From a virus, in the IMG/VR virus record IMGVR_UViG_3300010885_020684, positions 1 to 21,064 of that record: a DNA stretch of 21,064 nt; one strand, 5' to 3'. A model generated the notes under the pieces. The model was not told the origin of the DNA. It worked only from the letters and a program-made list of their open reading frames with translations, and did no database searches. Numbering within the stretch: the first letter of the stretch is position 1; the number at the start of each line of letters is the position of its first letter. Positions 4,260 to 20,895 of this stretch are shown piece after piece. The position numbers and the translations under genes are program-made.

Positions 4260-4705
4260 AACAGTATCGCATAACAGCTCAGGATCATTCTCATGATCAT
4301 ATACCTGATGCTGTAATGGCCGAGGATGAGTTGTTGGCCATACGACACCTGGCCGGACTGGGCCGCGGTCTGTTAGAAGACCTGTCCCCAATAACCATGA
4401 CACCAACATCAGCAGATGCCCGTGACATGCCGGCTATGAGCCCAGTGGGATCAAACATTTCCATCACCGGCATGGAAAAACAACGACTAGAAAAACAATT
4501 ACATATTGTACCCGGCACACCCGAATGGTTTCAGCTGTGGTTCAGTCGTCCGTACCTGACTGGTGAAAAACCCGTGGGGGATCAGCGTCCCAAGCGTGAA
4601 CCCAATCCCACATACCTGCTGGACAAAAACGGCAATGCCGATCAAGACCGAGTAGAACAACTTGCGACTCGATTAGAACGCAAGTTTCGTAACTCAAGCA
4701 ACTAG
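4256..4705 (+). CDS. Conserved small phage protein with RxLAGL motif
   Basis: 149 residues, third in the ATGA-coupled chain. An N-terminal His/Asp-rich segment is followed by AIRHLAGLGRGLLED (28-42). The RxLAGL core recurs in the 923-residue protein and at the extreme C-terminus of the 489-residue protein. The centre is proline-rich and probably extended. The segment HIVPGTPEWFQLWFSRPYL (about 83-101) is the likely folded, conserved core. It lacks the (I/L)xE N-terminal peptide of its neighbours. Its last 12 nt overlap the 3' end of the convergent HNH gene. Late, head-related role inferred from operon position; molecular function unknown. Confidence 0.75.
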   Translation: MKQYRITAQDHSHDHIPDAVMAEDELLAIRHLAGLGRGLLEDLSPITMTPTSADARDMPAMSPVGSNISITGMEKQRLEKQLHIVPGTPEWFQLWFSRPYLTGEKPVGDQRPKREPNPTYLLDKNGNADQDRVEQLATRLERKFRNSSN

Positions 4706-5221
4706 TTTTTCAACACCCAAGTATTTGTTCCACGATTCCTGTTTCACAGTGAAAGGCAAGTCTTTCCACTTGTTGACCAGGTTGTAGTATTCTGGGCGAT
4801 GCGGCAAGTTCTTTGGACGCATCAACTTGGAACCTTTGTGATGGTTACAACTCTTGCAACTGGTGACACAGTTGTCCCATGCAGTCTTACCGCCGGCCGC
4901 CCTGGGCACCACATGATCGATGGTCAAGTCTTCGTAGTCGAATATGTCTTCACAGTATTGACACTCAAACAGGTCACGTAGGTACATGTTGTAGCGACTG
5001 AACTTGACATGTTTCTTATATTTGAAATAGTCTGTGGTCACACAAACACTGGGCACATTGATAGCCAAGCGTTCCGAATGCACTATCCAAGTTGGATAAG
5101 TTTCAAGTACATGGACTTTTTTAAGAAACATTAGTTTTATAGCATGTTGCCAATTGATAACGCTCAAGGGCAGTACGGAAATTGGACGATAATCTTGATT
5201 AAGCAGTAAGCAGTCACTCAT
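4694..5221 (-). CDS. HNH endonuclease (lone minus-strand gene)
   Basis: 175 residues from the ATG at 5219-5221 (MSDCLLLNQDYRP). An upstream in-frame start at 5257 is rejected because it would overlap terL and lacks family resemblance. The C-terminal half carries the HNH motif: CQYC zinc knuckle, then LTIDHVVPRAAGG with the central His and metal-binding Asp/His, an Asn in AWDNCV, and the second knuckle CKSCNHHKG. The N-terminal LLLNQDYRPISVLPLSVINWQHAI matches bacterial stand-alone HNH nucleases of about 165-180 residues. It is the only minus-strand gene here. Its 3' end overlaps the preceding gene by 12 nt and its start is 12 nt from terL. It could be a homing-type nuclease or a packaging-associated nuclease; HNH proteins next to terminases assist packaging in some HK97-type phages. 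Confidence 0.9.
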   Translation of the reverse strand: MSDCLLLNQDYRPISVLPLSVINWQHAIKLMFLKKVHVLETYPTWIVHSERLAINVPSVCVTTDYFKYKKHVKFSRYNMYLRDLFECQYCEDIFDYEDLTIDHVVPRAAGGKTAWDNCVTSCKSCNHHKGSKLMRPKNLPHRPEYYNLVNKWKDLPFTVKQESWNKYLGVEKLVA

Positions 5222-5233
5222 AAGTAATAGATA

Positions 5234-6802
5234 ATGGCAAAATTTGACGAACAACAATTAGTAAAGACGCCCCATAAAAAATCGTCTTATACAGAACAGC
5301 AAATCATGGAATTTGCTCGCTGTGCAGATCCTGTGGCGGGACCACAGTATTTTATGGACAACTACTTCTACATACAACACCCCGTCAAAGGTAAGATGTT
5401 GTATCACCCTTTTGAATATCAAAAGCGTCTTATTGATACTTATCACTGTCACAGATTCAGTATAGCATTAATGCCCAGACAAACAGGCAAATCAACCAGT
5501 GCCGCCGGCTACTTGTTATGGTATGCCATGTTTGTTCCTGACTCAACAATTCTTATTGCGGCTCACAAGTATACAGGAGCACAAGAAATTATGCAACGAG
5601 TTCGGTATGCCTATGAACTGTGTCCGGACCATATTCGTGCAGGTTGTACCAGTTACAACAAAGGCAGTTTGGAGTTTGAAAATGGTAGCCGTATTGTAAG
5701 TCAAACCACAACAGAAACAACAGGTCGTGGTATGAGTATTACATTACTGTACTGTGATGAGTTTGCGTTCGTGCGTCCCACCATTGCCAAAGAGTTCTGG
5801 ACATCCATATCACCCACACTGAGCACTGGTGGTAAGGCCATTATCACAAGCACACCAAACTCAGACGAAGATCAATTTGCCCTGATATGGAAGCAGGCCA
5901 ACAAGTGTGTGGATGAATTTGGAAACCGAACCGAACTGGGCATAAACGGATTCAGAGGCTTTCAGGCCAGTTGGCAAGAACATCCAGACCGTGACGAACA
6001 ATGGAAAACAGAAGAAATTGGTCGCATCGGTGAAGAGCGTTTCCGGCGCGAACATGGGTGCGAATTCTTGATCTACGATGAAACACTAATCAACAGCACC
6101 ACCCTGATTGAAATGGCCGGCATAGATCCTGTTGAACGACAAGGTCAAGTGCGTTGGTACAAGAAGCCTACCAAAGGACATCAATATTGTGTAGGACTAG
6201 ATCCCAGCTTGGGCACCGGTGGCGACTATGCCGCTTTGGAAATAATCGAAATACCCACAATGATGCAGGTGGGCGAGTGGCAGCACAACAAAACACCAAT
6301 ACAAAGGCAAATTGTCATCATGAAAGAGATCTGTGATTACTTGTATGAAGTCACAGGTTCTGATACGGACATATACTACAGCGTGGAAAACAACACCATT
6401 GGTGAAGCATCGTTGATTGCCATTGCTGAAATTGGTGAAGAAAACATACACGGAACATTCTTGACAGAACCTAAAAAAGTGGGCAATGTGCGTTCCTATC
6501 GCAGAGGATTCAACACCACACACAAGAGCAAACTCACAGCCTGTGCCAAGCTGAAGAGCTTGATCGAAACCCGGCGTATGCACATAGCCAGCAAAAACTT
6601 GATCAGTGAACTAAAGACTTTTGTGGCCACTGGCAATACTTTCAAAGCCAAAATTGGAGAAACTGATGATCTGGTCATGAGCCTGATCTTGGTATTACGC
6701 ATGATACAAATGTTACAGAGCTTTGATGCTGAGTTAGACCAAACTCTCAGGGACGGATTAGATGAGTTCATTGAGCCCATGCCATTTATAATGACCATGT
6801 AA
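5234..6802 (+). CDS. terL: Terminase large subunit (gp17-like ATPase/nuclease)
   Basis: 522 residues, somewhat shorter than T4 gp17 (610). It powers DNA translocation into the prohead and cuts the concatemer. ATPase motifs seen: adenine/Q motif HPFEYQKRL (58-66), Walker A MPRQTGKST (80-88), Walker B LLYCDEFAF with D175-E176, and coupling motif III AIITSTPN (202-209). Nuclease (RNase H fold) motifs seen: VGLDPSLGTGGD with D323, YYSVENN with E385, and GETDDLVMS with D478/D479. All catalytic residues are present, so the enzyme looks intact. There is no strong Shine-Dalgarno site before the ATG. The small subunit gene (gp16) is not visible in this window. Confidence 0.97.
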   Translation: MAKFDEQQLVKTPHKKSSYTEQQIMEFARCADPVAGPQYFMDNYFYIQHPVKGKMLYHPFEYQKRLIDTYHCHRFSIALMPRQTGKSTSAAGYLLWYAMFVPDSTILIAAHKYTGAQEIMQRVRYAYELCPDHIRAGCTSYNKGSLEFENGSRIVSQTTTETTGRGMSITLLYCDEFAFVRPTIAKEFWTSISPTLSTGGKAIITSTPNSDEDQFALIWKQANKCVDEFGNRTELGINGFRGFQASWQEHPDRDEQWKTEEIGRIGEERFRREHGCEFLIYDETLINSTTLIEMAGIDPVERQGQVRWYKKPTKGHQYCVGLDPSLGTGGDYAALEIIEIPTMMQVGEWQHNKTPIQRQIVIMKEICDYLYEVTGSDTDIYYSVENNTIGEASLIAIAEIGEENIHGTFLTEPKKVGNVRSYRRGFNTTHKSKLTACAKLKSLIETRRMHIASKNLISELKTFVATGNTFKAKIGETDDLVMSLILVLRMIQMLQSFDAELDQTLRDGLDEFIEPMPFIMTM

Positions 6803-6803
6803 T

Positions 6804-7373
6804 ATGCAAATAACACCAATAACTGACCGGTTGTTTCAGGTTGAAAACTTGCTTCCACAACAGTTGGTTGATCAGTTACTGGCCAAGGATTGGATGGCCG
6901 CTGCCTGGCAAAAGCAAGACATGCAATTGGATTGGCTACGCAGGGCATTGACCACCGAAGCAGACCCTGTATTGATGGAAGCCAGTGATTACATAGCAAC
7001 GCTAAAGCCACAAATCGAAGAACTGTGTCGTGTGAACTTTGGTCGACGGACAAATCGCGGCAATACAGTGTGGTGGATCGATGAGCCCAATTTCACAGTA
7101 GACATGCACACAGATGGTGAACTGCGGTCTACCATGCAAATATATTGGGTATCTCCTGCTGACAATTTGGGTACAATTTTCAGTGATTTTAAAGATCCTG
7201 TAAATCCATACAAAAAATTTGTGCCAGCAGTCAATACTGGATATATCATGTTAAACGGACCCAACCCCGATGGGTCACAGCCCTTGCTTTGGCACGGCAT
7301 GCTGAACCCAGTGCCAGCAGGCACATTCCGTGTGTCCAGCTATACAACCTTTGGCCCATATACAGATAAATAA
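6804..7373 (+). CDS. 2-oxoglutarate/Fe(II)-dependent oxygenase-like protein
   Basis: 189 residues, starting 1 nt after the terL stop. The layout fits a double-stranded beta-helix dioxygenase: an iron-binding HxD (H102-T-D104 in FTVDMHTDGE), a distal His (H164 in LLWHGMLNP) and an Arg for 2-oxoglutarate (R176 in GTFRVSSY). The N-terminal half is helical, as in prolyl-hydroxylase-like phage members. Such proteins are common in T4-like aquatic phages and may hydroxylate a protein or a nucleic-acid base; the substrate here is unknown. The terminal codons merge with the GATAAATA box of the next gene. The fold assignment rests on the spaced H/D/H/R residues and is fairly good; the reaction is inferred. 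Confidence 0.75.
   Translation: MQITPITDRLFQVENLLPQQLVDQLLAKDWMAAAWQKQDMQLDWLRRALTTEADPVLMEASDYIATLKPQIEELCRVNFGRRTNRGNTVWWIDEPNFTVDMHTDGELRSTMQIYWVSPADNLGTIFSDFKDPVNPYKKFVPAVNTGYIMLNGPNPDGSQPLLWHGMLNPVPAGTFRVSSYTTFGPYTDK
7365..7372 (+). promoter_or_regulatory. Late promoter octamer GATAAATA, 5 nt before a start codon
   Basis: GATAAATA overlaps the stop of the oxygenase gene and ends 5 nt before the ATG at 7378. With the T4 late geometry (octamer at -13 to -6) the transcript would begin at the A of that ATG, giving a leaderless message. An almost identical module (GATAAATAACAxTATG) precedes the gene at 15449. Confidence 0.5.
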
Positions 7374-7377
7374 CATT

Positions 7378-8847
7378 ATGAGAGAAATAGACAAAATTGC
7401 AGAAAACTTGTTTGACAAGATCCGTAGCCGATTTAGTAATGTAAATCTAGGTGATGACACAGCCAAACGCACCCAAGATCCAGAGCAAGCCAGATTTTTT
7501 AACTTTGACTTTGATGTTGACGGAGAAGTGTTGGGCAATGTCACAGTCAGCTTGATTGACGAAAAGTCTATGAAAGTGTACTTTGGCAGCGACATCATTG
7601 ACAGCATCAAAGAAGACAACGAAGACACTGACGCTAAAAAAGAAGCATGGTACGACTTCTTGAGAAACTTGCGTAAGTTTGCCAAGCGTAACATGTTGAA
7701 CTTTGACACTAGAGATGTTGCCAAAAGCAATTTGCAACTCAAAGATATCAAACAACAAACCAAGGCAGATGATACCGTGAGCAAAGATGAAATCAATGTA
7801 ACTGAAAGTAGACTGTATGGAACCAGAAGACACAGTTTTATGGAAGTTGGCCCATGTAAATTACGAATTGTACACAGCGCAGATATTGATGAAGAAAAGC
7901 ATGGAGCTCGTGGACGCAAGATTGAACAAATCTTTATTGAAACACCACACGGTGAGCGATTCCTAGTACCGCACCGGCACTTGGGTTGTGCGGCCGCCTT
8001 GGCCACACATGTTGCACACGGTGGTGAACACAATGATGAAATAGCCGAGTGCATGAATGGCATGGTTGCTGAAATGGGCAACATGAGTCATTTTGTGCGT
8101 TCAGTAAAACGCCGTACAGACCTAGATGACGAGACAGGTGAAATGGCGCAGGCGGCCGTTAACAGATACAACGAACTCAAGAACCAACTGAAGCGTCTAA
8201 GAAGCCCACGCCACTACTTGGATTTTGTTGAAAGCTATATGCCAGAATCCGCAATAGAGGATGAATATGATGTTGACGCATTGCGTGAGCGTTTTGTTAA
8301 AAAAATGTATGATGAGCGTTTTGATGCCGCATTACCATTTGTGTACAGAGCACACAAGCGACAACAAGAAAGTCTTAATTCGCCAATGGCAGAAGAATTC
8401 GAGTCCTGGGCCAATGGTATATTAGAAGGTACTTGGGCCATGCCCGAATCAGAAGAAGAAATCCGTAAACTAGTTGAACTAATGGGCAAGCCACTGTTGG
8501 TTGGTGTCAATGGCGAAGATGCCACTAGCGCACTGTACAGCGTGATTGGTGATGACCAATTATTTGATGACATACACAACATGGCTGATATCAAAGGTGA
8601 AGATTACGATTGCCGACCCGAAGTGCTAAAATGGGTAAAACAAAACATGCCTGCGGTGGTGCCACAAATTGAAGCAGTGATGCAAGATGAAAAGGCAGAA
8701 CCACAACCAGGTGCAGAGCCAGTATTGGGTACAACACAACCTGCTGAACAACCTGCTCCTGCTCCCGCCCCGGCACCTGCACAGCCCGTGATGCAAAGTG
8801 CTGATCCATTGGACTTCATCCGTTCCTTGGCTGGACTCAAACGATAA
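7378..8847 (+). CDS. Probable virion/internal protein with CTS-like start and Pro/Ala linker
   Basis: 489 residues from ATG 7378; an in-frame ATG at 7330 is rejected because it overlaps the oxygenase and would hide the conserved MRE start. The N-terminus MREIDKIAE ends in IAE at residue 9, the (I/L)xE pattern, and strongly recalls T4 MKTYQEFIAE. The middle (about 150-250) contains an alpha/beta region with HGERFLVPHRHLGCAAALA. A helical, charged region follows. Near 445-465 there is an Ala/Pro repeat linker, and the protein ends DPLDFIRSLAGLKR, with the RxLAGL motif found in two other head-region genes. This layout (sorting peptide, body, flexible linker, short terminal helix) suggests a packaged or scaffold-bound protein. 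No enzyme motif was recognised. A terminator follows 14 nt after the stop. Confidence 0.8.
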   Translation: MREIDKIAENLFDKIRSRFSNVNLGDDTAKRTQDPEQARFFNFDFDVDGEVLGNVTVSLIDEKSMKVYFGSDIIDSIKEDNEDTDAKKEAWYDFLRNLRKFAKRNMLNFDTRDVAKSNLQLKDIKQQTKADDTVSKDEINVTESRLYGTRRHSFMEVGPCKLRIVHSADIDEEKHGARGRKIEQIFIETPHGERFLVPHRHLGCAAALATHVAHGGEHNDEIAECMNGMVAEMGNMSHFVRSVKRRTDLDDETGEMAQAAVNRYNELKNQLKRLRSPRHYLDFVESYMPESAIEDEYDVDALRERFVKKMYDERFDAALPFVYRAHKRQQESLNSPMAEEFESWANGILEGTWAMPESEEEIRKLVELMGKPLLVGVNGEDATSALYSVIGDDQLFDDIHNMADIKGEDYDCRPEVLKWVKQNMPAVVPQIEAVMQDEKAEPQPGAEPVLGTTQPAEQPAPAPAPAPAQPVMQSADPLDFIRSLAGLKR

Positions 8848-8861
8848 AACCAAAATTTGGT

Positions 8862-8895
8862 AAAGAAAATGGGCAAAGTAATTTGCCTTTTCTTT
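8862..8895 (+). terminator. Rho-independent terminator, probably bidirectional
   Basis: Stem AAAGAAAA plus GGCAAA (8862-8877, with a 2-nt bulge), loop GTAA, then TTTGCC and TTTTCTTT (8882-8895). The A-rich and T-rich outer arms give a U-tract on either strand. It separates the late block from the gene 32 transcription unit, whose -35 box begins at the last base of the stem. A short palindrome ACCAAAATTTGGT (8849-8861) lies directly upstream. Confidence 0.8.
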
Positions 8896-8923
8896 TGACT
8901 TGAGATAAATAAACATGTATACT
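8895..8923 (+). promoter_or_regulatory. Sigma70 promoter for gene 32
   Basis: TTGACT (8895-8900), a 17-nt spacer and TATACT (8918-8923) are close to the TTGACA/TATAAT consensus. Expected start is near 8930, giving a leader of about 55 nt. It lies right after a terminator and before a replication gene, as expected for an early or middle promoter read by host RNA polymerase. Confidence 0.8.
8904..8911 (+). promoter_or_regulatory. Late octamer GATAAATA inside the sigma70 spacer
   Basis: The octamer, followed by AAC, sits between the -35 and -10 boxes of the sigma70 promoter. It would start late transcription near 8917, so gene 32 could be made both early and late. The arrangement recurs at 20652-20680. 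Confidence 0.5.
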
Positions 8924-8944
8924 GCAAAGAGTGCATTATACATA

Positions 8945-8983
8945 TTAAGGCACACAATTAAGGCACATTTTTAAGGAGAACTA
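8945..8983 (+). repeat. Three 13-nt TTAAGG repeats in the gene 32 leader (possible operator)
   Basis: TTAAGG occurs at 8945, 8958 and 8971, exactly 13 nt apart. The first two units share TTAAGGCACA; the third supplies the Shine-Dalgarno site AAGGAG (8973-8978), 7 nt before the ATG. The leader is A/U-rich and looks unstructured. In T4 and RB69, gp32 represses its own translation by binding cooperatively to UUAAA-type repeats around the ribosome site. A similar role here is inferred from position and periodicity. Confidence 0.6.
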
Positions 8984-8985
8984 TT

Positions 8986-9978
8986 ATGGCCATGACTTTA
9001 TCTGAAATTCGCGCAAAACTGCAATCTCAAGACAACCGTAAAACCGGTAATCAACAAGGCGGTGACAACGCCATTTACGCACACTGGAACATTCCAGAAA
9101 ACACAACAGCCCGCGTAAGATTCCTCCCCGACGCAGATCCAAAGAACTCATTTTTCTGGGTTGAACGCCTGATGATCAAATTGCCATTTGCTGGCGTTAA
9201 AGGTCAATCAGACAGCAAACCAGTTGTTGTTCAAGTACCTTGCGTTGAAATGTATGGAGACGCTTGCCCGGTATTGGCAGAAGTGCGTACCTGGTTCAAA
9301 GACCCTAACCTAGAAGAAATGGGTCGTAAGTATTGGAAGAAAAAATCTTATCTGTTCCAAGGCTTTGTGCGTGACAACCCAATCGGTGATGACAAGACTC
9401 CGGAGAATCCAATCCGTCGCTTTGTTATTAGCCCACAGATCTTCAACTTGATCAAGAACGCACTAATGGATCCAGAAATGGAAAACTTGCCCACAGACTA
9501 TGCGGCAGGCTTGGACTTCTCAGTTAAGAAGACCAGTAAAGGTGGTTATGCTGACTACAGCACCAGTACTTGGTCACGCAAAGAGTCTGCACTCACAGCA
9601 GTAGAAGCGGCCGCAATTGAGCAGTATGGACTTCACAACCTAGGTGATTTCTTGCCCAAGCGTCCCACTGATGTGGAGTTAAAAGTCATCAAAGAGATGT
9701 TTGAAGCATCTGTTGATGGACAGCCTTACGATCCAGATCGTTGGGCCAACTACTACAAGCCATATGGTTTGTCAGCAGGTGCTGGTAGCACAGGTGACGA
9801 AGTTGCCGCTCCATCAGTCAAGGTTGCCGCTCCAGCAGTGGCCAAGGCTGAAACTCCTGCTTGGGAAGATGATGCCGCAGAAGCCGCAGAAGCTATTTCG
9901 GTAGCCGCACCAGTTGCTAAACCATCAAGTCAAAAAGCCGAGGACATCTTGGCCATGATTCGTAGTCGAAAACAGTAA
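8986..9978 (+). CDS. 32: Single-stranded DNA-binding protein (gp32-like)
   Basis: 330 residues, close to T4 gp32 (301). It coats single-stranded DNA during phage replication, recombination and repair. The order of motifs matches gp32: a basic N-terminal arm; an OB-fold core beginning ARVRFLPDADPKNSFFW (42-58), like gp32 'AVIRFLPS'; a zinc-loop equivalent CVEMYGDACPVL (C86, C94); and a KYWKKKSYLFQGFV strand like gp32 'SYWANILVV'. An Ala/Val/Pro-rich linker leads to a C-terminal peptide AEDILAMIRSRKQ. The fourth T4 zinc ligand position is Leu and the spacing is shorter, so zinc binding may be lost. The C-terminus ends basic rather than strongly acidic as in T4, so partner contacts probably differ. 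Strong Shine-Dalgarno site and own promoter imply high expression. Confidence 0.92.
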   Translation: MAMTLSEIRAKLQSQDNRKTGNQQGGDNAIYAHWNIPENTTARVRFLPDADPKNSFFWVERLMIKLPFAGVKGQSDSKPVVVQVPCVEMYGDACPVLAEVRTWFKDPNLEEMGRKYWKKKSYLFQGFVRDNPIGDDKTPENPIRRFVISPQIFNLIKNALMDPEMENLPTDYAAGLDFSVKKTSKGGYADYSTSTWSRKESALTAVEAAAIEQYGLHNLGDFLPKRPTDVELKVIKEMFEASVDGQPYDPDRWANYYKPYGLSAGAGSTGDEVAAPSVKVAAPAVAKAETPAWEDDAAEAAEAISVAAPVAKPSSQKAEDILAMIRSRKQ

Positions 9979-10799
9979 TGCAACTGTCGGTAGTTTTAGG
10001 CTCCTCCACTCCGGAGGAGTCTTTTTCCATTGCACTTTATGACAATTGTTTTGTAAATAAATGGATCGATGAATTTCGTTGGTGTAACAGCAATTCTGTA
10101 ATCAACCAACAGGATGCGTTTTCAACACTGATGTCTGTTGAGGAAGCCGCGACAGTACTATTGGATTCTTGTACCACTATTAATCGATATCTCAAAGACT
10201 TTGTAGAAATTAGATCCGATATTGCAAACCAATCGCAAGAGTACTACAACTATTTGCATGGTGTGTTTGAACGGCTGACAGGAACATTTGATCGACCTAC
10301 CAGATTGTTTACCATTGCCAATGCAGAACTTAGAACAGCCATTAGAAATTTAAACTTTTATGTACACAGAGTAGAGCAACAAACTGTTCCGTTGGTTAAC
10401 ATGTATTTGAATTTTGATAAAGATCAATATCGTAGAATTCCGTTTGAACCAGAAGATTACGACTTTTTTGAATTCTCTTTTCCTGCAGGTACCTTGTTCT
10501 TGCACTATGCAGAACTGGGCAAAGAATATTTTGATCTGTATGAAGATGGTTTAGAACTAGATTATACAGCATCAGTCAACTCGCATTATTACAGCGGTGA
10601 AGCAAGTTTGGCAGCCAGGGATTTTGATGCATTTGAGGATACCAAATTCAAACAATGGCTAATTGACAGAAACATTGATCCTTATAACAAGTCTCTGGCA
10701 CATGGAAAAATACCATTGGGCCGTGTGGACAATATAGATCAGGTCACAACCATGCTACAACGGCATCGATACATCAATCGGATTGAAATCCATGAGTGA
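9978..10799 (+). CDS. Unknown protein coupled to gene 32 and the radical SAM gene
   Basis: 273 residues. The start ATG shares its A with the gene 32 TAA stop (TAATG), and the last 8 nt overlap the radical SAM start, so translation is probably linked on both sides. I do not recognise the family. The middle (about 50-140) is predicted to be mainly helical, with many Asn, Gln and Tyr. The later part has aromatic and acidic segments (FEPEDYDFFEFSFPAGTLFLHYAELGK split across about 156-182). No catalytic signature or membrane segment is visible. A terminator-like hairpin lies within its first codons. Conserved coupling to the radical SAM enzyme would make it a candidate substrate or partner, which is inference only. 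Confidence 0.75.
   Translation: MQLSVVLGSSTPEESFSIALYDNCFVNKWIDEFRWCNSNSVINQQDAFSTLMSVEEAATVLLDSCTTINRYLKDFVEIRSDIANQSQEYYNYLHGVFERLTGTFDRPTRLFTIANAELRTAIRNLNFYVHRVEQQTVPLVNMYLNFDKDQYRRIPFEPEDYDFFEFSFPAGTLFLHYAELGKEYFDLYEDGLELDYTASVNSHYYSGEASLAARDFDAFEDTKFKQWLIDRNIDPYNKSLAHGKIPLGRVDNIDQVTTMLQRHRYINRIEIHE
9999..10026 (+). terminator. Terminator-like hairpin inside the start of a gene
   Basis: GGCTCCTCC (9999-10007), loop ACTCC, GGAGGAGTC (10013-10021, including one G-U pair), then TTTTT (10022-10026). It begins 20 nt after the gene 32 stop and encodes residues about 8-16 of the next protein. It probably ends most gene 32 transcripts and lets a fraction continue. The GGAGGAG arm could also mimic a Shine-Dalgarno site, but no suitable start follows it. 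Confidence 0.75.
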
Positions 10800-11907
10800 T
10801 ATAAATTCCATAGCGTTTGCACTTGATCCGGCCAATGTTCCTAGTTTTTTGCTAGACTGGGAAGTTACCAAACGGTGTAATTTAGACTGTGGGTATTGTG
10901 CCACAGGAGAGTTTGGAGGACATGACAACAGTCTCGAACATCCTCCTGTGGCAGAATGTCTACAGTCAATTGATTTTATGTATGAGTATGTTGACTTGTA
11001 CATGCGACACAAAAAACCCAGTCAACGCAAAGTGGTGTTGAATGTGTACGGTGGCGAAAGCCTGTTTCATCCGGACATTGTGGAGATACTTGAAGCCTGT
11101 AGAGATCGATATGCCAAGTACAAAGATGCATGGCATCTAACCATAACCTGTACAACCAACGGTGTGGTTGGAGCCAACCGATGGGCACAGATAGTACCCT
11201 TGGTTGACATGTTTATGATGAGTTATCATGCTGAAGCTCTGCCAAAGCAACAGCAACAGTACCTAGACAATGTCATGTATCTCAAACAACACAATCGACG
11301 AGTCAAATGTGTTGTGATGATGCATAACAATCCAAAATTGTTTGAGCAATCGCAAACAGTGGTGGAGTTTTGTAAAACCAACAACATAGATCATGTGGCC
11401 AAGGCATTGGATAACAGCGAAGCCAATTGGTCTTACAACAGCGCACAACAACAGTCCATGAAGGTACATTGGATAACCAAATCTGAACTATCCAATCGAC
11501 CAGTTATTGAACAAGGCCGCGCTTGTTGCGGCGGTAGGAAGCTCAGCGTCAATGGTGATTTGAAATCTCGCGATACCTTTGTGCATCGCCAAGGTTTCCG
11601 GGATTGGTACTGTAGTGTCAATTGGTTCTTTTTATTTGTTAACCAGAGCAACGGAACGGTATATACAAACAAAGACTGCATGACTAGTACCACCAACCGA
11701 GTTGAACCCCTGGGCAGGTTAAAAGAATATCAACAGATCCTTGATACTGTACAACAGCAATTAGACACTCAGTCTATGCCCATTATTCGTTGTGTCAAGG
11801 ACTCTTGTAGATGTGGCTTCTGTGCGCCAAAAGCACAAAACTTAGAAGATTTTATGAGTTTGATAGAACGCAATGTTCCGGACAAAGTGTTCTTGCAAAG
11901 CACATAA
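10792..11907 (+). CDS. Radical SAM enzyme with Cys-rich C-terminal domain
   Basis: 371 residues from ATG 10792, which overlaps the previous stop by 8 nt; a TTG at 10783 is possible but less likely. The [4Fe-4S]/SAM-binding motif CX3CX2C is clear in TKRCNLDCGYC (C29, C33, C36). The SAM-binding YGGES motif is at 86-90. The C-terminal third holds eight further Cys: C245-C246, C274, C296, and a cluster C334, C339, C341, C344. This resembles SPASM/twitch domains that hold auxiliary Fe-S clusters in peptide-modifying radical SAM enzymes. The reaction is unknown; modification of a protein or peptide fits the extra Cys, but a nucleic-acid target cannot be excluded. Radical SAM genes of this kind occur in aquatic T4-like phages. 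Confidence 0.9.
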   Translation: MSDINSIAFALDPANVPSFLLDWEVTKRCNLDCGYCATGEFGGHDNSLEHPPVAECLQSIDFMYEYVDLYMRHKKPSQRKVVLNVYGGESLFHPDIVEILEACRDRYAKYKDAWHLTITCTTNGVVGANRWAQIVPLVDMFMMSYHAEALPKQQQQYLDNVMYLKQHNRRVKCVVMMHNNPKLFEQSQTVVEFCKTNNIDHVAKALDNSEANWSYNSAQQQSMKVHWITKSELSNRPVIEQGRACCGGRKLSVNGDLKSRDTFVHRQGFRDWYCSVNWFFLFVNQSNGTVYTNKDCMTSTTNRVEPLGRLKEYQQILDTVQQQLDTQSMPIIRCVKDSCRCGFCAPKAQNLEDFMSLIERNVPDKVFLQST

Positions 11908-13936: not shown

Positions 13937-14688
13937 CACAATTTGCCAATCCACATTTAAGCCACGACCATAGTTTAGAAATACTAAATTTGCTCTACGG
14001 ATATGATAGTTTTTTAGATAGCCTCACTGTAATAGGAGACATGGGGTGTGGTGCAGGACTAGATGCTGTCTGGTGGGCCAATTTGGAAACTCGTGACGAC
14101 CCACCTGAACCTAGAAATTATCGAGTATATGCAGTTGATCGCAGTCTTAACAAGGTAGATGAAGAGATTCGCGAGATAGAAAATATCAGATGGATAGAAG
14201 GTAATTTTGAAGAGTATGGTATACTGCCAGAGCTACTGGATTTGGTGTGGGCACACGATACCTTTCAATTTGTTACAAGTCCACTGCACACATTGTCGGT
14301 CTGGAACAAACAGATGAATACCAATGGCATGTTGGTAATGGCCCTGCCTCAAACAATCAATTACGCCTATAACAGATTGACCTTTAGAACACATAATTAT
14401 TCTTATTTTAATTATAACATTTCAAATTTGGTTTATATGTTGGCCGTGAATGGGTTTGATTGTAGAGATGCATATTTTTACAAAAATGTTGAAACTGATT
14501 GGATATACTTGGCAGTATACAAAGCAGAAGAGCCAATGGATCCCAGTACCACCAGTTGGTTTGATCTAGCTGATAAAAAATTATTGCATCCAAGTGTAGT
14601 AGACAGCTTGAACAGATACGGACATGTTAGACAAGAAGATATAGTGTATCCTTGGCTAGACAAAGATTTCTATAGGGCAAAAACATGA
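13933..14688 (+). CDS. Class I SAM-dependent methyltransferase
   Basis: 251 residues. The Rossmann-fold methyltransferase motifs are in order: motif I VIGDMGCGAG (33-42) binding SAM; an acidic residue ending strand 2 (VYAVDRS, D69) for the ribose; ENIRWIEGNFEEY (83-95); and a post-motif DLVWAHDTFQFV (103-114) where the catalytic strand 4 lies. There is no NPPY or DPPY motif, so it is not a classical adenine or N4-cytosine DNA methyltransferase; a small-molecule, sugar or lipid target fits better. It overlaps the next gene, a nucleotidyltransferase-cupin, by 4 nt, so the two may act in one pathway such as making a sugar or polyol decoration. The substrate is unknown. Confidence 0.85.
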   Translation: MTQFANPHLSHDHSLEILNLLYGYDSFLDSLTVIGDMGCGAGLDAVWWANLETRDDPPEPRNYRVYAVDRSLNKVDEEIREIENIRWIEGNFEEYGILPELLDLVWAHDTFQFVTSPLHTLSVWNKQMNTNGMLVMALPQTINYAYNRLTFRTHNYSYFNYNISNLVYMLAVNGFDCRDAYFYKNVETDWIYLAVYKAEEPMDPSTTSWFDLADKKLLHPSVVDSLNRYGHVRQEDIVYPWLDKDFYRAKT

Positions 14689-15440
14689 AGATAGTAGTTT
14701 GTACCGGTGGCTTTGACCCTGTGCATAAAGGACATATACAATATTTGACAGAAGCCGCAAACTTTGGCGACATGTTGATTGTGGGACTCAATAGCGATGC
14801 TTGGCTTGAGAAAAAGAAGGGTCGTGCATTTATGCCTTGGGCAGAGCGTGCCGCGGTATTACAAGCAATGCGAGCAGTTACCCGTGTGGAAAGTTTTGCC
14901 GATGACGAGATTGGTAGTGCTAGAAATCTATTAATCAATATCAAGCGTCAGTTTCCTTATGCAGAAATAATCTTTGCCAATGGAGGCGATCGCACAGAAA
15001 ACAACATACCCGAAATGGATGTACCGGGCGTCGACTTTATTTTTGGAATTGGCGGCTTTTCCAAATCCAACAGTAGTGGCTGGATACTGAGTGAATGGAA
15101 AGCCCCAAAAACAGAACGCCCATGGGGGTACTACAGAGTACTACACGAAGTACCAGGAACCAAAGTAAAAGAATTAACCATCATGCCTGGGCAGTCATTG
15201 AGTATGCAACGACACTCAAATCGTGCTGAGTATTGGCATATTAGCCATGGCGCTTGTGATGTGTTTGGCATGATGCCCAATGGATATGCACTACCAGTGC
15301 TGTTGTTAAGTGAGCATATGAACTATCATGTGCCGGTTGAGCAATGGCATCAACTGACAAACCCCTACGAAGTTCCGTGTAAAATTGTGGAAATACAGTA
15401 CGGCACAGCCTGCACAGAAGAAGACATTGAACGGCGATAA
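14685..15440 (+). CDS. Cytidylyltransferase-like / cupin fusion protein
   Basis: 251 residues with two domains. Residues 1-about 125 are a nucleotidyltransferase of the glycerol-3-phosphate cytidylyltransferase/HldE type: GGFDPVHKGHIQYL (8-21) carries the HxGH active site (H14-K-G-H17), and ANGGDRTENNIPE (98-110) matches the GGDR/K segment. Residues about 145-248 are a cupin like the isomerase end of mannose-1-phosphate guanylyltransferases: RPWGYYRVL, then MPGQSLSMQRHSNRAEYWHI and VPVEQWHQLTNP. The two activities in one chain suggest activation and processing of a sugar or polyol phosphate. The usual isomerase partner of this cupin is a GT-A nucleotidyltransferase, so the pairing with an HxGH enzyme is unusual. 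Surface glycan or nucleoside-linked sugar synthesis is inferred. Confidence 0.88.
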   Translation: MKIVVCTGGFDPVHKGHIQYLTEAANFGDMLIVGLNSDAWLEKKKGRAFMPWAERAAVLQAMRAVTRVESFADDEIGSARNLLINIKRQFPYAEIIFANGGDRTENNIPEMDVPGVDFIFGIGGFSKSNSSGWILSEWKAPKTERPWGYYRVLHEVPGTKVKELTIMPGQSLSMQRHSNRAEYWHISHGACDVFGMMPNGYALPVLLLSEHMNYHVPVEQWHQLTNPYEVPCKIVEIQYGTACTEEDIERR

Positions 15441-15448: not shown

Positions 15449-16975
15449 ATGCGTGAATTTATCAACCTTATTGAACAATTAAACGAAAACGGACTACCAC
15501 CAGGTGTGCTGGTAAACCAGCGTAATGGTACCAAATATTTGGAGGTACTGGTGGCCAAGATGCGGGCCAAGCAACCATTGGCACTCAATCCCGGCGTTAC
15601 AGCCAATTTTGGATTTGCCGCAACAGAAGCCTATGCTACTCCAGACTCTGTACAAGAGTGGGAAACTGCATTACAGCAGGCCAAACAGTCTCTTCTTGGA
15701 CTTGTACTACCTAAAAAAATCAATGTGACCTTTAAAGGACAAAAAGGTACTTTTACCATCGCTCCGGGTAATTTGTTCAAGAGCTCAGACTACACCGGGC
15801 GCGAAACAGTGGGTGGCGGTGTAAGCAAAGACTACAATGCCGGACATCTTAACGAACTGATCATGGGCTTGGCTGTCACAGCCAAGTTCTTGAATCAAGG
15901 TAAACCCATCACCAACGACCAGTTGTTGGCCATGGCCAGTCACAGTGATACTGAAACTGTGATTGATGACAAAACAAAAAAAGCCAAAGGCATTCGTTTT
16001 GTGCTGGAGCGTGTTGTCAAGTACGATGACCCCAGTACAAAGTCTGATCGTGTCAACTTGAGTGCGTTGATTCCCAATGCATCTGCACAGAGTTTTATTC
16101 GCCAGATGAATACCAATACACTGGGCGCCGATATTGTTGCCTTGTTTGCCAGTGCAATCAAATATGCCAACACCGCACCAACTGTGCGAACAGCCTGTGA
16201 TGTTGCTCGTGAAGATCCTAACAACAACTTGATTGAAGTCATTTGCGATGGCACATCAAGTGCTACTTCAACCAAAGCTGACCTTACACTGAAGATTGAT
16301 GGCAACTCGCCTGAAAAAGCACAAAAGAACCTGCTGAGTTTAAAAACAACATCCAGCAACACCCTGGGACAAATCAGTGGTCTAAAATTTGAGAGCATAC
16401 TTTTATGGTTTAAAACAAACTTTGGTATTGATGTGTCTCAGTACAAACAAGACTTTGATCCGGCATTAGACAAAGAAGTAGTTTATCAAAATCTCATGAA
16501 ACTGTATGACACAGTTTATCCTGCAGTAGAAAAAGAAGTTGAAAATCAAAGTCCTAAAAAAGAAGTCGCGATTGTGAAACAGTTAGCAGCCGCCGCAAAC
16601 TATTATGCACGAGGCGAAAGCCTCGAGGATGTTGAGATTGTCAAACTGGACGACAGTATCAAAGAAGGCAATTACAAAATTCTTCGCTTCACCGACAACT
16701 TGTATGATGCTATGCGTTACCTGGATTTAGAAACACGGTTTAAGAAAGAAGGCAACAATAGAACTATTCAAATTTGGGTCAAACCTGCTCCAGGTGTCAA
16801 GGTACCCAAAGGATCTAACCGGTTGTGTCAGTTCCGTACCACACGAACAGCAGGATATGCTCGCAACTATTTTGAATCAGGCCCTATGCTAGAGGCACTC
16901 ACAGAAGTGACTATAGAGCCCACGGAGCCAGCAGTCGCACAGCCTAAAGACATAGGCAGGCCCAGAAGAGCTTGA
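15449..16975 (+). CDS. Probable internal head protein, possible PD-(D/E)XK nuclease fold
   Basis: 508 residues. The N-terminus MREFINLIE closes with LIE at residue 9, matching the (I/L)xE capsid-targeting pattern, and the preceding DNA carries the same late module as the 489-residue gene. The centre has features reminiscent of restriction-endonuclease-like folds: a helix YNAGHLNELIMGLAVTAKF with E136, a strand KADLTLKIDG with D278, and LLSLKTTSSNTLGQISG with S297-L298-K299 in the place of the usual (D/E)xK. The acidic residue before Lys is absent, so activity is uncertain. C-terminal residues 390-470 look alpha/beta with basic patches. If packaged and injected, it could act early on host DNA or defences. 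Family not identified; late gene and head targeting are the better-supported parts. Confidence 0.75.
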   Translation: MREFINLIEQLNENGLPPGVLVNQRNGTKYLEVLVAKMRAKQPLALNPGVTANFGFAATEAYATPDSVQEWETALQQAKQSLLGLVLPKKINVTFKGQKGTFTIAPGNLFKSSDYTGRETVGGGVSKDYNAGHLNELIMGLAVTAKFLNQGKPITNDQLLAMASHSDTETVIDDKTKKAKGIRFVLERVVKYDDPSTKSDRVNLSALIPNASAQSFIRQMNTNTLGADIVALFASAIKYANTAPTVRTACDVAREDPNNNLIEVICDGTSSATSTKADLTLKIDGNSPEKAQKNLLSLKTTSSNTLGQISGLKFESILLWFKTNFGIDVSQYKQDFDPALDKEVVYQNLMKLYDTVYPAVEKEVENQSPKKEVAIVKQLAAAANYYARGESLEDVEIVKLDDSIKEGNYKILRFTDNLYDAMRYLDLETRFKKEGNNRTIQIWVKPAPGVKVPKGSNRLCQFRTTRTAGYARNYFESGPMLEALTEVTIEPTEPAVAQPKDIGRPRRA

Positions 16976-17000
16976 CAGCTAACGGCTGTTAGTGTATAAT
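16972..17000 (+). promoter_or_regulatory. Consensus sigma70 promoter for the tRNA genes
   Basis: TTGACA (16972-16977), 17-nt spacer, TATAAT (16995-17000): both boxes are exact consensus. The start would fall near 17007, 2 nt before the tRNA. The -35 box overlaps the TGA stop of the upstream gene. The spacer holds an inverted repeat CTAAC-GGCT-GTTAG (16979-16992), possibly an operator. Confidence 0.9.
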
Positions 17001-17356: not shown

Positions 17357-17431
17357 CTGCCTGTAGTATAATGGATAATACACATGACTTCTAATCTTGC
17401 AATCCAGGTTCGATTCCTGGCAGGCGGACCA
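17357..17431 (+). tRNA. tRNA-Arg (TCT)
   Basis: Acceptor CTGCCTG/CAGGCGG (one T-G pair), D-arm GTAT...ATAC, anticodon stem CATGA/TCTTG (one T-T mismatch) with loop CTTCTAA (anticodon 17390-17392), T-arm CCAGG TTCGATT CCTGG, discriminator A and encoded CCA. It reads AGA (and AGG) codons, which the phage uses often and high-GC hosts rarely do. Confidence 0.9.
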
Positions 17432-17441
17432 AATACATCAA

Positions 17442-18626
17442 ATGCAAACACTAGAACAAAATCCCAGACTAGGTTTTTACACCGTAGGCGATAAACGATT
17501 CTACAGCAAGCCACAGGCCTTGTTGGAAGCAACAGCCACTGGCCACTTTCCGCACTTCAACTTCAACAGAGAAGTATACAGTCGAATAGATACAACCGTA
17601 GAACCGCAAACGAGTCTGCGTGAATTGTATCGTATGCGGGCTCAGCAACTACGAGATCGATACGATTATATTAGACTTGAATTCTCGGGCGGCAGCGATT
17701 CAACAACCGTACTATATAGTTTTATCAACAATGGCATTCATCTTGATGAAGTTGTGTTCCGGTACCCTGCACAAGGCGACAAGAATCTTGGACCCGATGC
17801 CAAGAACATGAAGGCCGAAAATACCTTGAGTGAATGGCACTTTGCGGCCAAGCCTGTATTACAGAAACTCGCAGTCTCGCACCCAAATATCAAGATCACT
17901 ATGCATGACTTTAGTCAAAACATTCTTGACTATAAAGGTGATGAGTCGTGGGTAGAGAACGCTAGAGACTATCTGCATCCTGAGCACACATTCAAACATG
18001 ACCCTTTGGGCCTAGATGGACACAAGCAACTGGCCGAGTCGGGTAAAAGCATCTGTGTGTTGTACGGCATTGACAAGCCTAAGATCTGTATTCGAGATGG
18101 GCGTTGGTACCTGTACTTCTTGGACATACAGGCCAATCACAGCCAAGGTACCATAGGCCCTTACACCAACTTGACCACCGAATACTTTTACTGGCAACCA
18201 GACATTCCCGAGTTGATTATCAAACAGGCACACACCATTCGTAACTGGTTCCAACTGCCACATACACGACACCTACAGTTCTTGATGCGTTGGCCCAACC
18301 ATAGTCCCGCACAGCGCAATGCCTACGAACAGATTGCCCGTCCCCTGATCTACGAAGACTACGATCCTACCACTTGGCAAACAATGAAAAGCACCAACAA
18401 CTTCTACTCAGAAATGGGCTGGTGGTTCTTTAAGAACTTTACAGAAACTCGTTTTTATGAAGTTTGGAAAGCTGGTGTGGCACACATGGTGGACCGGATT
18501 GATCCCAAGTTCTTTACCTATGAGATGGGACGGCCTGTGGGCTTTACCGGGTTCATGGACACCTTCTACGACCTAGGACCTGCTGACTTTGTCAATAACG
18601 ATGCCATGTTGGATCTAATGCGCTGA
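17442..18626 (+). CDS. PP-loop ATPase family protein, copy 1
   Basis: 394 residues from ATG 17442, 10 nt after tRNA-Arg; the ORF extends upstream into the tRNA, so that start is rejected. After an N-terminal segment GFYTVGDKRFYSK shared with copy 2, the PP-loop RLEFSGGSDSTTVLYSF (78-94) carries SGGxDS, which binds the ATP pyrophosphate in PP-loop enzymes (TilS, ThiI, QueC, PAPS reductase, asparagine synthetase). Further shared blocks: INNGIHLDEVVF, YGIDKPK near 207-213, and EYFYWQPDIPELIIKQAH. These enzymes adenylate a carboxyl, carbonyl or tRNA position before transfer. No zinc knuckle or TilS C-terminal domain is evident, and no PAPS reductase Cys motif. The 1-nt overlap with copy 2 (TGATG) suggests a heteromer or sequential action. 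Confidence 0.85.
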   Translation: MQTLEQNPRLGFYTVGDKRFYSKPQALLEATATGHFPHFNFNREVYSRIDTTVEPQTSLRELYRMRAQQLRDRYDYIRLEFSGGSDSTTVLYSFINNGIHLDEVVFRYPAQGDKNLGPDAKNMKAENTLSEWHFAAKPVLQKLAVSHPNIKITMHDFSQNILDYKGDESWVENARDYLHPEHTFKHDPLGLDGHKQLAESGKSICVLYGIDKPKICIRDGRWYLYFLDIQANHSQGTIGPYTNLTTEYFYWQPDIPELIIKQAHTIRNWFQLPHTRHLQFLMRWPNHSPAQRNAYEQIARPLIYEDYDPTTWQTMKSTNNFYSEMGWWFFKNFTETRFYEVWKAGVAHMVDRIDPKFFTYEMGRPVGFTGFMDTFYDLGPADFVNNDAMLDLMR

Positions 18627-19759
18627 TGGAACAGTTTGGATTTTATCGTGTGGGCGATCAAAAATTCTACAGTAAGTTAGAAGCCGCACACGAGCACGAG
18701 CGTTCTGGTTTGCCACTCCGCTGGGATTTTAACGAAGCAGTATACAGCAGTTATGATTGGAAACAAGAGCCGGTTGAAACATTGGACGAACTGTATCGTC
18801 AACGGGCACAGCAGATCAGAGACCGATATGATTATGTTGTGCTTTGGTTCAGTGGCGGCGCAGACAGCAACAATGTATTAAATTCTTTCATCAACAACGG
18901 TATCAAGCTGGATGAAGTTGCCAGTTATGTGAACTACGAGGCAACCAAGGATCGCTACAATTTTCTCAATGGAGAAATTTACAATGTGGCCGCAGGCAAA
19001 GTAGAACAGGCAAGAATACAACAACCTGATCTACGACACACTGTGATTGACCTGGCCAAACAAACACTAGATCACTTTACTGCCAAAGAGACCAAGTTTG
19101 ATTGGATATATCATATGAATGGATATCTCAATCCCAACAATGCGGCCAAGCAAGATATCAAACTGCGTGAAGCTCACTGGCGTGATATGATTGCGTCTGG
19201 CAAGCGTGTGGGCTTTGTACACGGCATTGACAAGCCACGCATCAACGAAGTCAAAGGCAATTACTATTTTCGATTTGTGGACATGGTAGATACTGCTGTG
19301 AGTGGGCAAGTGCAGATGTTGAATCGTCCTTGGGACTTTGATGAAATGTTTTATTGGAGTCCAGACGCGGCCAAGATTGTGATCAAACAAAGCCATATTA
19401 TTAAACGCTATATGTCCCATGCCACTCCGTTGAGCCCATACATAACCGAAGATACTAGCAACATTGTGAGTCGAAACATCAATGGCAAACAATACTTTTT
19501 GAGTGTTGATGGCATCAGTTACTTGATCTATCCTGGTTGGTATCCGGTGCCGTATCAGGCCAAGGCACCCAGCCTGTTCTTTACACCCAGAGATGAATGG
19601 TTTTTTAACCTGCCAGATGATGATCCTGCTAAGTATTCTTGGAGAACAGGACTAGAACACATTTGGCGTATCATGCCAGACAAATGGAAAGAAGATCCTC
19701 GAGACATCAGACGAGGATTTAAAAAGATGCACAGCAAGGTTTATAATTTAGGATCATGA
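18626..19759 (+). CDS. PP-loop ATPase family protein, copy 2
   Basis: 377 residues, overlapping copy 1 by 1 nt. It is a clear paralogue: GFYRVGDQKFYSK (5-17), LDELYRQRAQQIRDRYDYVV (53-72), PP-loop WFSGGADSNNVLNSF (74-88, SGGADS 76-81), INNGIKLDEVA, FVHGIDKPRI and MFYWSPDAAKIVIKQSH. It has Asn-Asn after the loop where copy 1 has Thr-Thr, a change that may alter catalysis. The C-terminal third is distinct from copy 1. The gene ends with an ATGA overlap into the Bug-type gene, so the trio forms one translational unit. Asparagine-synthetase-like or tRNA-modifying chemistry are both possible; the substrate is unknown. Confidence 0.85.
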   Translation: MEQFGFYRVGDQKFYSKLEAAHEHERSGLPLRWDFNEAVYSSYDWKQEPVETLDELYRQRAQQIRDRYDYVVLWFSGGADSNNVLNSFINNGIKLDEVASYVNYEATKDRYNFLNGEIYNVAAGKVEQARIQQPDLRHTVIDLAKQTLDHFTAKETKFDWIYHMNGYLNPNNAAKQDIKLREAHWRDMIASGKRVGFVHGIDKPRINEVKGNYYFRFVDMVDTAVSGQVQMLNRPWDFDEMFYWSPDAAKIVIKQSHIIKRYMSHATPLSPYITEDTSNIVSRNINGKQYFLSVDGISYLIYPGWYPVPYQAKAPSLFFTPRDEWFFNLPDDDPAKYSWRTGLEHIWRIMPDKWKEDPRDIRRGFKKMHSKVYNLGS

Positions 19760-20655
19760 AAAGTTTAATTTTATCTTTGGCCATATTACTTGGCTCAGCT
19801 CAAGCAGAAACGATTCGTATTGTGGTACCTTTTGCACCCGGCGGAGCCGCTGACCAAGCCGCTCGTGTGCTAGAACGAACTTTAACCACACATACACAGA
19901 ACACGTATGTTGTAGAGTACCGTGCAGGTGCAGGTGGCGCCATAGGTGCCAATTATGTGGCAAAAAGTCGTGGATCTGACACAGTTTTGTTGATTCACAG
20001 CCTGGCTGTGGTGGTAAACAGTCTACAGCCTGATGCTGGTTACAGCCTAACAGAATTTGAACCTGTTGCCACTTTGGGCACAGTGCAATTGGCTCTGATT
20101 ACCAACGCCAAGAGCACAGTAAACACCATGTCAAAATTGTTGGCCACCCGAGAGCCGGTGTTCTTTGGCAGCAGTGGCAACGGTGCGGCCACACATATCG
20201 CTGGCGAATTGTTTGGCATCAACACCGGCGTCAACATGACGCATGTACCGTATAAGGGTGAAGCGGCCGCATTAACAGACATACTCAGCAACAATATCAA
20301 TCTGCTGTTTACTGGTGTGGGAGTGGCCCGAGATCAACCTGTTGTAGTACTGGCCGTGACTGGCAATCGGCGTAATCCGTTGTTTCCTGATACACCCACA
20401 CTACAAGAGTCTGGCATTCGGGGTTTCACAACCAGCCCCAATTGGTTGGTGTTGTTGGCCAACACAACAGCAGATCAGCGCACCTTGGCAGTGATTCGAA
20501 CCGCACTTGGTCGAGCACTGGCAGAGGACCCAGACCTATTTGGTCGAATAGGCATTGACACTGACAGAAAACAATTGTATAATACACAACAGTTCATGAA
20601 TTCAGAACGACAGCGTGTTCAAACAATTTTATCCAAAATACAGAAAAGTAATTGA
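19756..20655 (+). CDS. Bug/TctC-family periplasmic solute-binding protein
   Basis: 299 residues, with a signal peptide: MK, hydrophobic core LILSLAILLGS, and an AQA cleavage site after residue 17. The mature protein has the family landmarks (PF03401 type): IRIVVPFAPGGAADQAARVL (20-39), YRAGAGGAIGANYVAKS (55-71), YSLTEFEPVATLG (96-108), VFFGSSGNGAATHIAGELF (135-153), NMTHVPYKGEAAALTDIL, LAVTGNRRNPLFPDTPTLQE and SGIRGF. Bug proteins bind carboxylates and feed tripartite tricarboxylate (TctCBA) carriers or act as sensors. No TctA/TctB genes are present, so it would use a host carrier or only bind the ligand. The usual length is about 320; all core blocks are present, so it is not truncated. It is out of place in a virus and was probably acquired from a host; a betaproteobacterial source is inferred. 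Confidence 0.93.
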   Translation: MKSLILSLAILLGSAQAETIRIVVPFAPGGAADQAARVLERTLTTHTQNTYVVEYRAGAGGAIGANYVAKSRGSDTVLLIHSLAVVVNSLQPDAGYSLTEFEPVATLGTVQLALITNAKSTVNTMSKLLATREPVFFGSSGNGAATHIAGELFGINTGVNMTHVPYKGEAAALTDILSNNINLLFTGVGVARDQPVVVLAVTGNRRNPLFPDTPTLQESGIRGFTTSPNWLVLLANTTADQRTLAVIRTALGRALAEDPDLFGRIGIDTDRKQLYNTQQFMNSERQRVQTILSKIQKSN

Positions 20656-20680
20656 CACAAAGAGATAAATAAACTATAAT
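20652..20680 (+). promoter_or_regulatory. Consensus sigma70 promoter at the right edge
   Basis: TTGACA (20652-20657), 17-nt spacer, TATAAT (20675-20680), both exact. The -35 box overlaps the TGA stop of the Bug-type gene, just as the tRNA promoter overlaps its upstream stop. Expected start is near 20687, immediately before the ATG at 20688, so the first ORF may be leaderless. Confidence 0.9.
20664..20671 (+). promoter_or_regulatory. Late octamer GATAAATA inside the sigma70 spacer
   Basis: GATAAATAAAC occurs between the two boxes, as in the gene 32 promoter. It would allow late transcription of the same unit from near 20677. Confidence 0.5.
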
Positions 20681-20687
20681 AGAGACT

Positions 20688-20822
20688 ATGATGCAAACAT
20701 TATCCTTACATTCACTGAAACAAATGCCCCAGTTAGGTCTATCAGCCTATTGGTGCCTGTTTGCGAATGAGAGTAATGATCGCACACCAGAAATTCGTAG
20801 GGTCCAGGGAGACACCGTGTAA
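20688..20822 (+). CDS. Short leader ORF (44 codons), possible leader peptide
   Basis: ATG ATG at 20688-20693 opens a 44-residue frame ending at TAA 20820-20822. It has no Shine-Dalgarno site and its first base is next to the predicted promoter start, so translation would be leaderless. The product has no recognisable domain and no run of one amino acid like those in classical amino-acid attenuators. Its last codons cover the left arm of the antiterminator described at 20798. The ORF could be real, a regulatory leader, or chance within a non-coding RNA. Confidence 0.35.
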   Translation: MMQTLSLHSLKQMPQLGLSAYWCLFANESNDRTPEIRRVQGDTV

Positions 20823-20856
20823 TTACATAGTAACTACAACAAACCCCAGGACCCTA
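20798..20856 (+). promoter_or_regulatory. Antiterminator-like pairing competing with the terminator
   Basis: TAGGGTCC-A-GGG (20798-20809) can pair with CCC-A-GGACCCTA (20845-20856), eleven pairs around one A-A mismatch. The right arm uses ACCCTA (20851-20856), which is also the left arm of the terminator, so the two hairpins exclude each other. This is the layout of a transcription attenuator. Confidence 0.5.
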
Positions 20857-20885
20857 GGCTTAAAACACCTAGGGTTTTTTATTTT
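20851..20885 (+). terminator. Rho-independent terminator between leader and downstream gene
   Basis: ACCCTAGG (20851-20858), 9-nt loop, CCTAGGGT (20868-20875), then a T-rich tail through 20885. It lies between the 20652 promoter and the gene at 20896, whose Shine-Dalgarno site AAGGA starts at 20886. Confidence 0.85.
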
Positions 20886-20895
20886 AAGGAACAAA

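Follow-up and report, generated by a model that had tools for sequence, protein, structure and literature searches.

Organization of the locus

The analysed stretch of viral DNA (hereafter the window; 21,064 nucleotides of IMG/VR record IMGVR_UViG_3300010885_020684) carries near its 3′ end an ORF for a TctC/Bug solute-binding protein (SBP), which follows two genes encoding PP-loop ATPases, PP1 and PP2 (Table 1). PP1 was listed with a TTG start at 17397 that overlaps the tRNA; the ATG at 17442 is the start in most homologues. PP2 and PP1 are 32% identical. The ATG of the SBP gene overlaps the PP2 stop codon as ATGA, and the stop-start overlaps at both the PP1/PP2 and the PP2/SBP junctions, in an arrangement that recurs in many phages, support the co-translation of the SBP with the PP-loop pair that the initial annotation had proposed.

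Table 1. Coordinates of the SBP cassette and its features in the window
Feature	Position	Strand	Remarks
Sigma-70-type promoter, TTGACA-17-TATAAT	16972-17000	+	12 of 12 consensus positions; upstream of tRNA-Met, tRNA-Arg, PP1, PP2 and SBP
tRNA-Arg (TCT)	17357-17431	+	Directly 5′ of PP1
PP1, PP-loop ATPase, 394 aa	17442-18626	+	ATG start; SGGSDS at 17685-17702
PP2, second PP-loop ATPase, 377 aa	18626-19759	+	Start overlaps PP1 stop; SGGADS at 18851-18868
SBP, TctC/Bug solute-binding protein, 299 aa	19756-20655	+	ATGA overlap with PP2
Predicted signal peptide, MKSLILSLAILLGSAQA	19756-19806	+	Simple hydrophobicity/AxA rule
Carboxylate-pincer signature PFAPGGAAD	19828-19854	+	First pincer loop; motif as in PMC5812351

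From its sequence, the upstream promoter is probably the operon promoter for the whole stretch from tRNA-Met to the SBP; L001-L004, four other contigs from IMG/VR, also have an exact TTGACA-N16..18-TATAAT 5′ of their PP genes. Two other exact TTGACA-17-TATAAT promoters were found, one within the end of the SBP gene (20555-20583) and the other right after its stop. The stretch 3′ of the SBP (20652-20890), which holds a promoter, a 44-aa ORF (20688-20822) and a CCTAGG hairpin with a T run, gave no match in Rfam and is strongly conserved in L001-L004; it is perhaps a small RNA or encodes a small protein.

A T4-type terminase, a gp32-like SSB and UvsX identify the window as phage DNA. The terminase is 53% identical to that of PA5oct/Paride-type jumbo phages (about 287 kb), and the 21-kb record is probably only a short piece of the genome of a large aquatic phage. 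The PP1-PP2-SBP order is shared by L001-L004, with SBP identities of 79-90%, while in a fifth contig (L005) the SBP lies at the contig edge and in a further phage an SBP homologue of 38% identity is located beside PP genes. In pairwise comparisons dN/dS was lowest for PP1 (0.02-0.03), followed by PP2 (0.06-0.08) and the SBP (0.10-0.13); all three genes are under purifying selection. The phage markers, together with the recurrence of the cassette in L001-L004, uphold the earlier view of the SBP as cargo of a T4-like phage.

The SBP is a TctC/Bug family member

The window SBP matched Pfam TctC (PF03401) with an E value of 6.3e-30 and 105 bits, above the curated cut-off of 27, and its relatives in PDB are BugD, Bug27 and terephthalate-binding proteins. 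Its AlphaFold model (pLDDT 94.6) was compared with known structures by Foldseek, which ranked BugD top (E 3.8e-23, TM 0.84) and thus identified a type II periplasmic-binding fold; adipate-, malate- and terephthalate-type receptors were found at a TM of about 0.85. The TctC signature P-F-x-A-G-G-x-x-D, the carboxylate-pincer motif reported to be nearly ubiquitous across the family (PMC5812351), has all four of its highly conserved positions intact in the window SBP, with proline in place of alanine at one less conserved site. Bug fold and pincer signature are thus retained, and the refuting conditions named in the initial annotation did not overturn it. The N-terminus, read with cleavage between MKSLILSLAILLGSAQA and ET, is signal-peptide-like, being hydrophobic with an AxA-type site, as called by a simple rule that is a heuristic and not a dedicated predictor. 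Pfam match, fold, pincer signature and rule-based export signal confirm the window SBP as a member of the TctC/Bug family, whose ligands are mostly carboxylates (PMC5812351); the initial description of an exported protein with the family blocks and a signal peptide therefore stands.

A tree was built from 45 phage SBPs and 11 bacterial proteins taken from plasmids. In it the window SBP grouped with phage SBPs of L003, L006, L054 and L055 at moderate support (87/91 and 80/88); many deep branches of the tree are without resolution, and several are long. The nearest bacterial proteins in the plasmid set are about 31-37% identical to it. Recent capture of the gene from a host is thus unsupported, as its nearest relatives are phage proteins and the bacterial ones reach at most about 37%. 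The gene was found in L001-L004 and L005, and TctC genes in many other phage contigs; GenBank phages yielded only two weak matches.

The phage SBPs are mutually diverse, often at 20-30% identity, and only 15 of the 45 in the tree set keep the full signature P-x-x-x-G-G-x-x-D; those without it may have changed ligand or role. To judge from these sequences the family has diversified in phages, and hence a ligand common to all members should not be taken for granted. Two second copies were also noted: the L003 contig has a TctC gene (L124:4170-5111, minus strand) away from the PP genes and amid other phage genes, possibly structural, and L008:10915-11777 harbours a copy in two frames and without a signal peptide that adjoins an intact one. 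Among the bacterial relatives examined, the nearest Bug proteins are in many cases orphans whose genes neighbour those of metabolism, for example for tricarballylate dehydrogenase and muconolactone isomerase, so a receptor-enzyme neighbourhood is normal in bacteria.

The PP-loop partners form a virus-restricted family with a predicted asparagine synthetase-like fold

A pattern-and-tblastn scan found 436 relatives of the PP proteins in IMG/VR, and a single match among 84,980 bacterial and archaeal species genomes. This match (L041), a contig 3 kb in length with the order PP-DctP-PP, was binned into a Methylococcaceae MAG and probably represents misbinned viral DNA. Since members without the query patterns escape such a scan, restriction of the family to viruses appears strong but not absolute. 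Three different PP members used as queries had no match in GenBank phages. Across 68 PP sequences SGGxDS is invariant or nearly so, and a set of invariant residues is common to all 68.

Profile searches against Pfam, NCBIfam, PHROGs and PDB gave no confident family for PP1 or PP2 of the window; QueC, LarE and PAPS-reductase were rejected as identities, as their matches were weak and, wherever an extent was given, covered no more than the region of the PP-loop. The predicted PP structure (pLDDT 91.3) was closest to asparagine synthetase B (1ct9; Z 10.8 over 287 residues, rmsd 5.2), followed by beta-lactam synthetase (Z 9.6) and carbapenam synthetase (Z 9.1), while NAD synthetases share the PP-loop fold at a Z of about 7. 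With about 10-12% identity and an rmsd of 5-6 for the best matches, the model indicates an asparagine synthetase-like fold class, from which the reaction is not readable. Enzymes of the asparagine synthetase/beta-lactam synthetase class adenylate carboxylates with ATP. PP1 has only about 80 residues before its PP-loop, thus the N-terminal glutaminase domain with its catalytic Cys is missing, and it has no Pfam class match. Moreover, PP carries GxDKP at what we take to be the position of the GEGSDE-type motif of AsnB. Because both the glutaminase domain and this motif are lacking, homology does not reveal the reaction of PP either.

TctC and PP genes are associated across phages

The linkage was surveyed starting mainly from PP genes, which formed 65 clusters at 80% identity, 51 of them with full flanks. 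TctC is located within 3 kb in 30 of these 51 clusters and within 200 bp in 22, with the other 21 having no TctC within 3 kb; all of the 43 SBPs that were aligned match Pfam TctC. Paired PP and TctC genes often overlap by 4 bp, and both gene orders occur, in divergent phages, which argues against one frozen block. For whole contigs, near-duplicates and records retrieved via the SBP were excluded; of the 39 TctC genes that remained, 30 lie at most 2 kb from a PP gene versus 4.8 expected by random placement. Among contigs of at least 90 kb the corresponding numbers are 16 of 22 versus 1.2, a count reached in none of 10,000 placements. A common cargo region could account for part of this adjacency. 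Neither the virus restriction of the PP family nor the enrichment of TctC genes around it had been noted in the initial annotation.

Carrier and porin genes in related phages

The initial annotation had noted that carrier subunits are absent nearby. This holds for the 21-kb fragment, in whose examined ORFs neither TctA nor TctB was recognised, but not for the phage group: of 39 related contigs, five encode a full-length TctA. A full TctB occurs in a single contig, and two short ORFs resembling TctB adjoin TctA. The remaining 34 contigs show no TctA, and many of them are fragments. Likewise, the absence of a carrier from the window says little, because this record is probably itself a fragment of a large phage.

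Two related phages have ordered blocks. In L121, from a 343-kb contig, the genes for Porin_4, TctA, a TctC-like protein and PP are contiguous on one strand (4434-9141), the last two overlapping; L122 (3624-9178, minus strand) has porin, TctA, a TctC-like gene, one extra gene and PP. Each block combines outer-membrane, periplasmic, inner-membrane and cytosolic parts. Both TctC-like proteins are below Pfam detection and were seen with our own profile (E 1.8e-10 and 1.8e-15), and the relatives of the porins point weakly to Burkholderiales/Neisseriales as hosts. A further TctA gene lies about 4 kb 5′ of the PP-TctC-DctP cluster of L027. The recurrent arrangement and the five TctA-encoding contigs, of which two have the porin-TctA-TctC-like-(PP) order, support the uptake role initially suggested for the SBP.

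Proteins of the DctP family (PF03480, the TRAP receptor) are encoded near PP genes in many phages, for example at L014:10225-11184, L006:13117-14082, L054:6353-7300 and L091:1205-2161 (minus strand). None of 38 such ORFs has a signal peptide by rule, so these proteins look cytoplasmic; the TRAP membrane subunit DctM was found in none of the 39 contigs. A PstS-like/PBP_like_2 phosphate-type binding protein is encoded 3 kb from the L027 cluster (4027-5028, minus strand).

A candidate module for carboxylate import and activation

On balance, the window SBP seems to be a functional periplasmic TctC/Bug receptor within a phage-specific module of carboxylate import and activation. PP1, PP2 and SBP would be made from one transcript during infection. 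The SBP would be exported, close around a carboxylate that had entered via the outer membrane, and hand it to a TctA-type carrier, either that of the host or, where tctA is present, the phage's own; the window SBP would be served by a host TctA or by a phage TctA encoded outside the fragment. In the cytoplasm, the PP-loop enzyme, seen as an ATP pyrophosphatase that resembles asparagine synthetase but lacks the glutaminase domain, would adenylate the carboxylate thus brought in, or a derivative of it, and couple it to an amine. We infer the transport, the identity of the carrier, the action of the synthetase on the imported ligand and the product; import followed by ATP-dependent activation is the most economical proposal because TctC proteins mostly bind carboxylates and PP-like synthetases adenylate them.

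A wider version of this proposal is more tentative: possibly, though doubtfully, large phages share an undescribed module in which a virus-only synthetase, exported TctC receptors and signal-less DctP-fold proteins, sometimes with porin and TctA, import an environmental carboxylate and convert it to a compound that is needed for infection and not supplied by host metabolism. If the import-and-activation proposal is right, some phages would import and activate a specific organic acid, going beyond a boost of host uptake. In many large phages a carboxylate-type receptor is genetically tied to a virus-restricted ATP-dependent enzyme, whereas most of what is known of solute receptors in phages comes from PstS, and there is a real chance that the TctC-PP module deserves its own category. 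For this unannotated enzyme family (436 contig stretches), the substrate could be found via the ligand of the partner receptor.

Alternative explanations

The strongest competitor, which we nevertheless consider unlikely, is plain auxiliary scavenging, where the SBP only raises host carboxylate uptake via the host TctAB and the PP genes are independent cargo of the same expression class. Where a host has many TctC genes and few for TctA, its Bug proteins are as a rule orphans (PMC5812351); phage PstS, thought to act in this way for phosphate, offers an accepted precedent (PMC6359870), and L027 carries a PstS-like gene. Against this, PP-TctC clustering in large contigs is far above random placement, and overlapping PP-TctC genes are kept in divergent phages in both orders, which independent cargo does not predict.

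An envelope role, in which the exported SBP wards off other phages as a decoy or blocker, or works as an extracellular sensor, instead of taking part in transport, is improbable. It would agree with the predicted export and with the signalling proposed for orphan Bugs (PMC5812351), but related phages have full-length TctA and porin beside TctC-like genes, the window SBP retains the ligand-binding fold and pincer signature, and no receptor-like partner was found.

Still less credible is delivery of a pyridine carboxylate (quinolinate or nicotinate) for NAD supply, with PP as an amide-forming, NAD synthetase-like enzyme. Although Bug27 and Bug69 bind quinolinate with a Kd of about 0.1 uM (PMC11452294) and the PP-loop fold is common to NAD synthetases, PP has no sequence link to NadE and matches the asparagine synthetase class better in fold, and the phage SBPs are too diverse to assume one ligand.

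Finally, an assembly chimera of a bacterial Bug gene and phage DNA has a negligible chance in spite of the abundance of Bug genes in bacteria, because L001-L004 carry the same junction at 79-90% identity with dN/dS of about 0.1, in line with the original judgement that the gene is no artefact, and the homologue beside PP genes in a further phage, the grouping of the SBP with phage proteins and the at most about 37% identity of the bacterial relatives found speak against it as well.

Comparison with known systems

The proposed import-and-activation module was set against known systems sharing its parts. Bacterial TctC/Bug receptors of the tripartite tricarboxylate transporter (TTT) family (BugD, AdpC/RPA4515, MatC and TphC) have the Pfam TctC domain, signal peptide, Bug fold and pincer signature in common with the window SBP, which differs in being phage-encoded and translationally coupled to a virus-restricted PP-loop pair. 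Cyanophage PstS, the known orphan SBP of phages (PMC6359870), is likewise a periplasmic protein of T4-type phages presumed to feed a host carrier; the window SBP is of another transporter and ligand class and is linked to an ATP-dependent enzyme, and some relatives of its cassette also carry a membrane subunit. Asparagine synthetase B and beta-lactam synthetase share the SGGxDS PP-loop and synthetase-domain fold with PP1 and PP2, which in contrast have no glutaminase domain and no family match at the sequence level.

In the publications searched, the TctC-PP cassette was not found and only mentions of tctA or tricarboxylate transport appeared: a tctA domain hit in a SUP05 virus contig (PMC4164917) and unexplained tricarboxylate transport neighbour genes in an OMZ myovirus scaffold (PMC8115048). 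These contigs have TTT transporter parts as here, yet the excerpts of the two reports describe neither a TctC-PP cassette nor the order porin-TctA-TctC. In the viral glnK-amtB-ompL block, genes for a transporter and an outer-membrane porin are combined in one phage operon (PMC8115048); this block concerns ammonium and not carboxylate and is without an SBP or synthetase.

Two other genes of the window were noted. A radical-SAM protein (10783-11907) looks by eye to be of the same family as one encoded near the L121 block (L121:2052-3227), and at 14685-15440 a cytidylyltransferase-like domain is fused to a mannose-6-phosphate-isomerase-type cupin.
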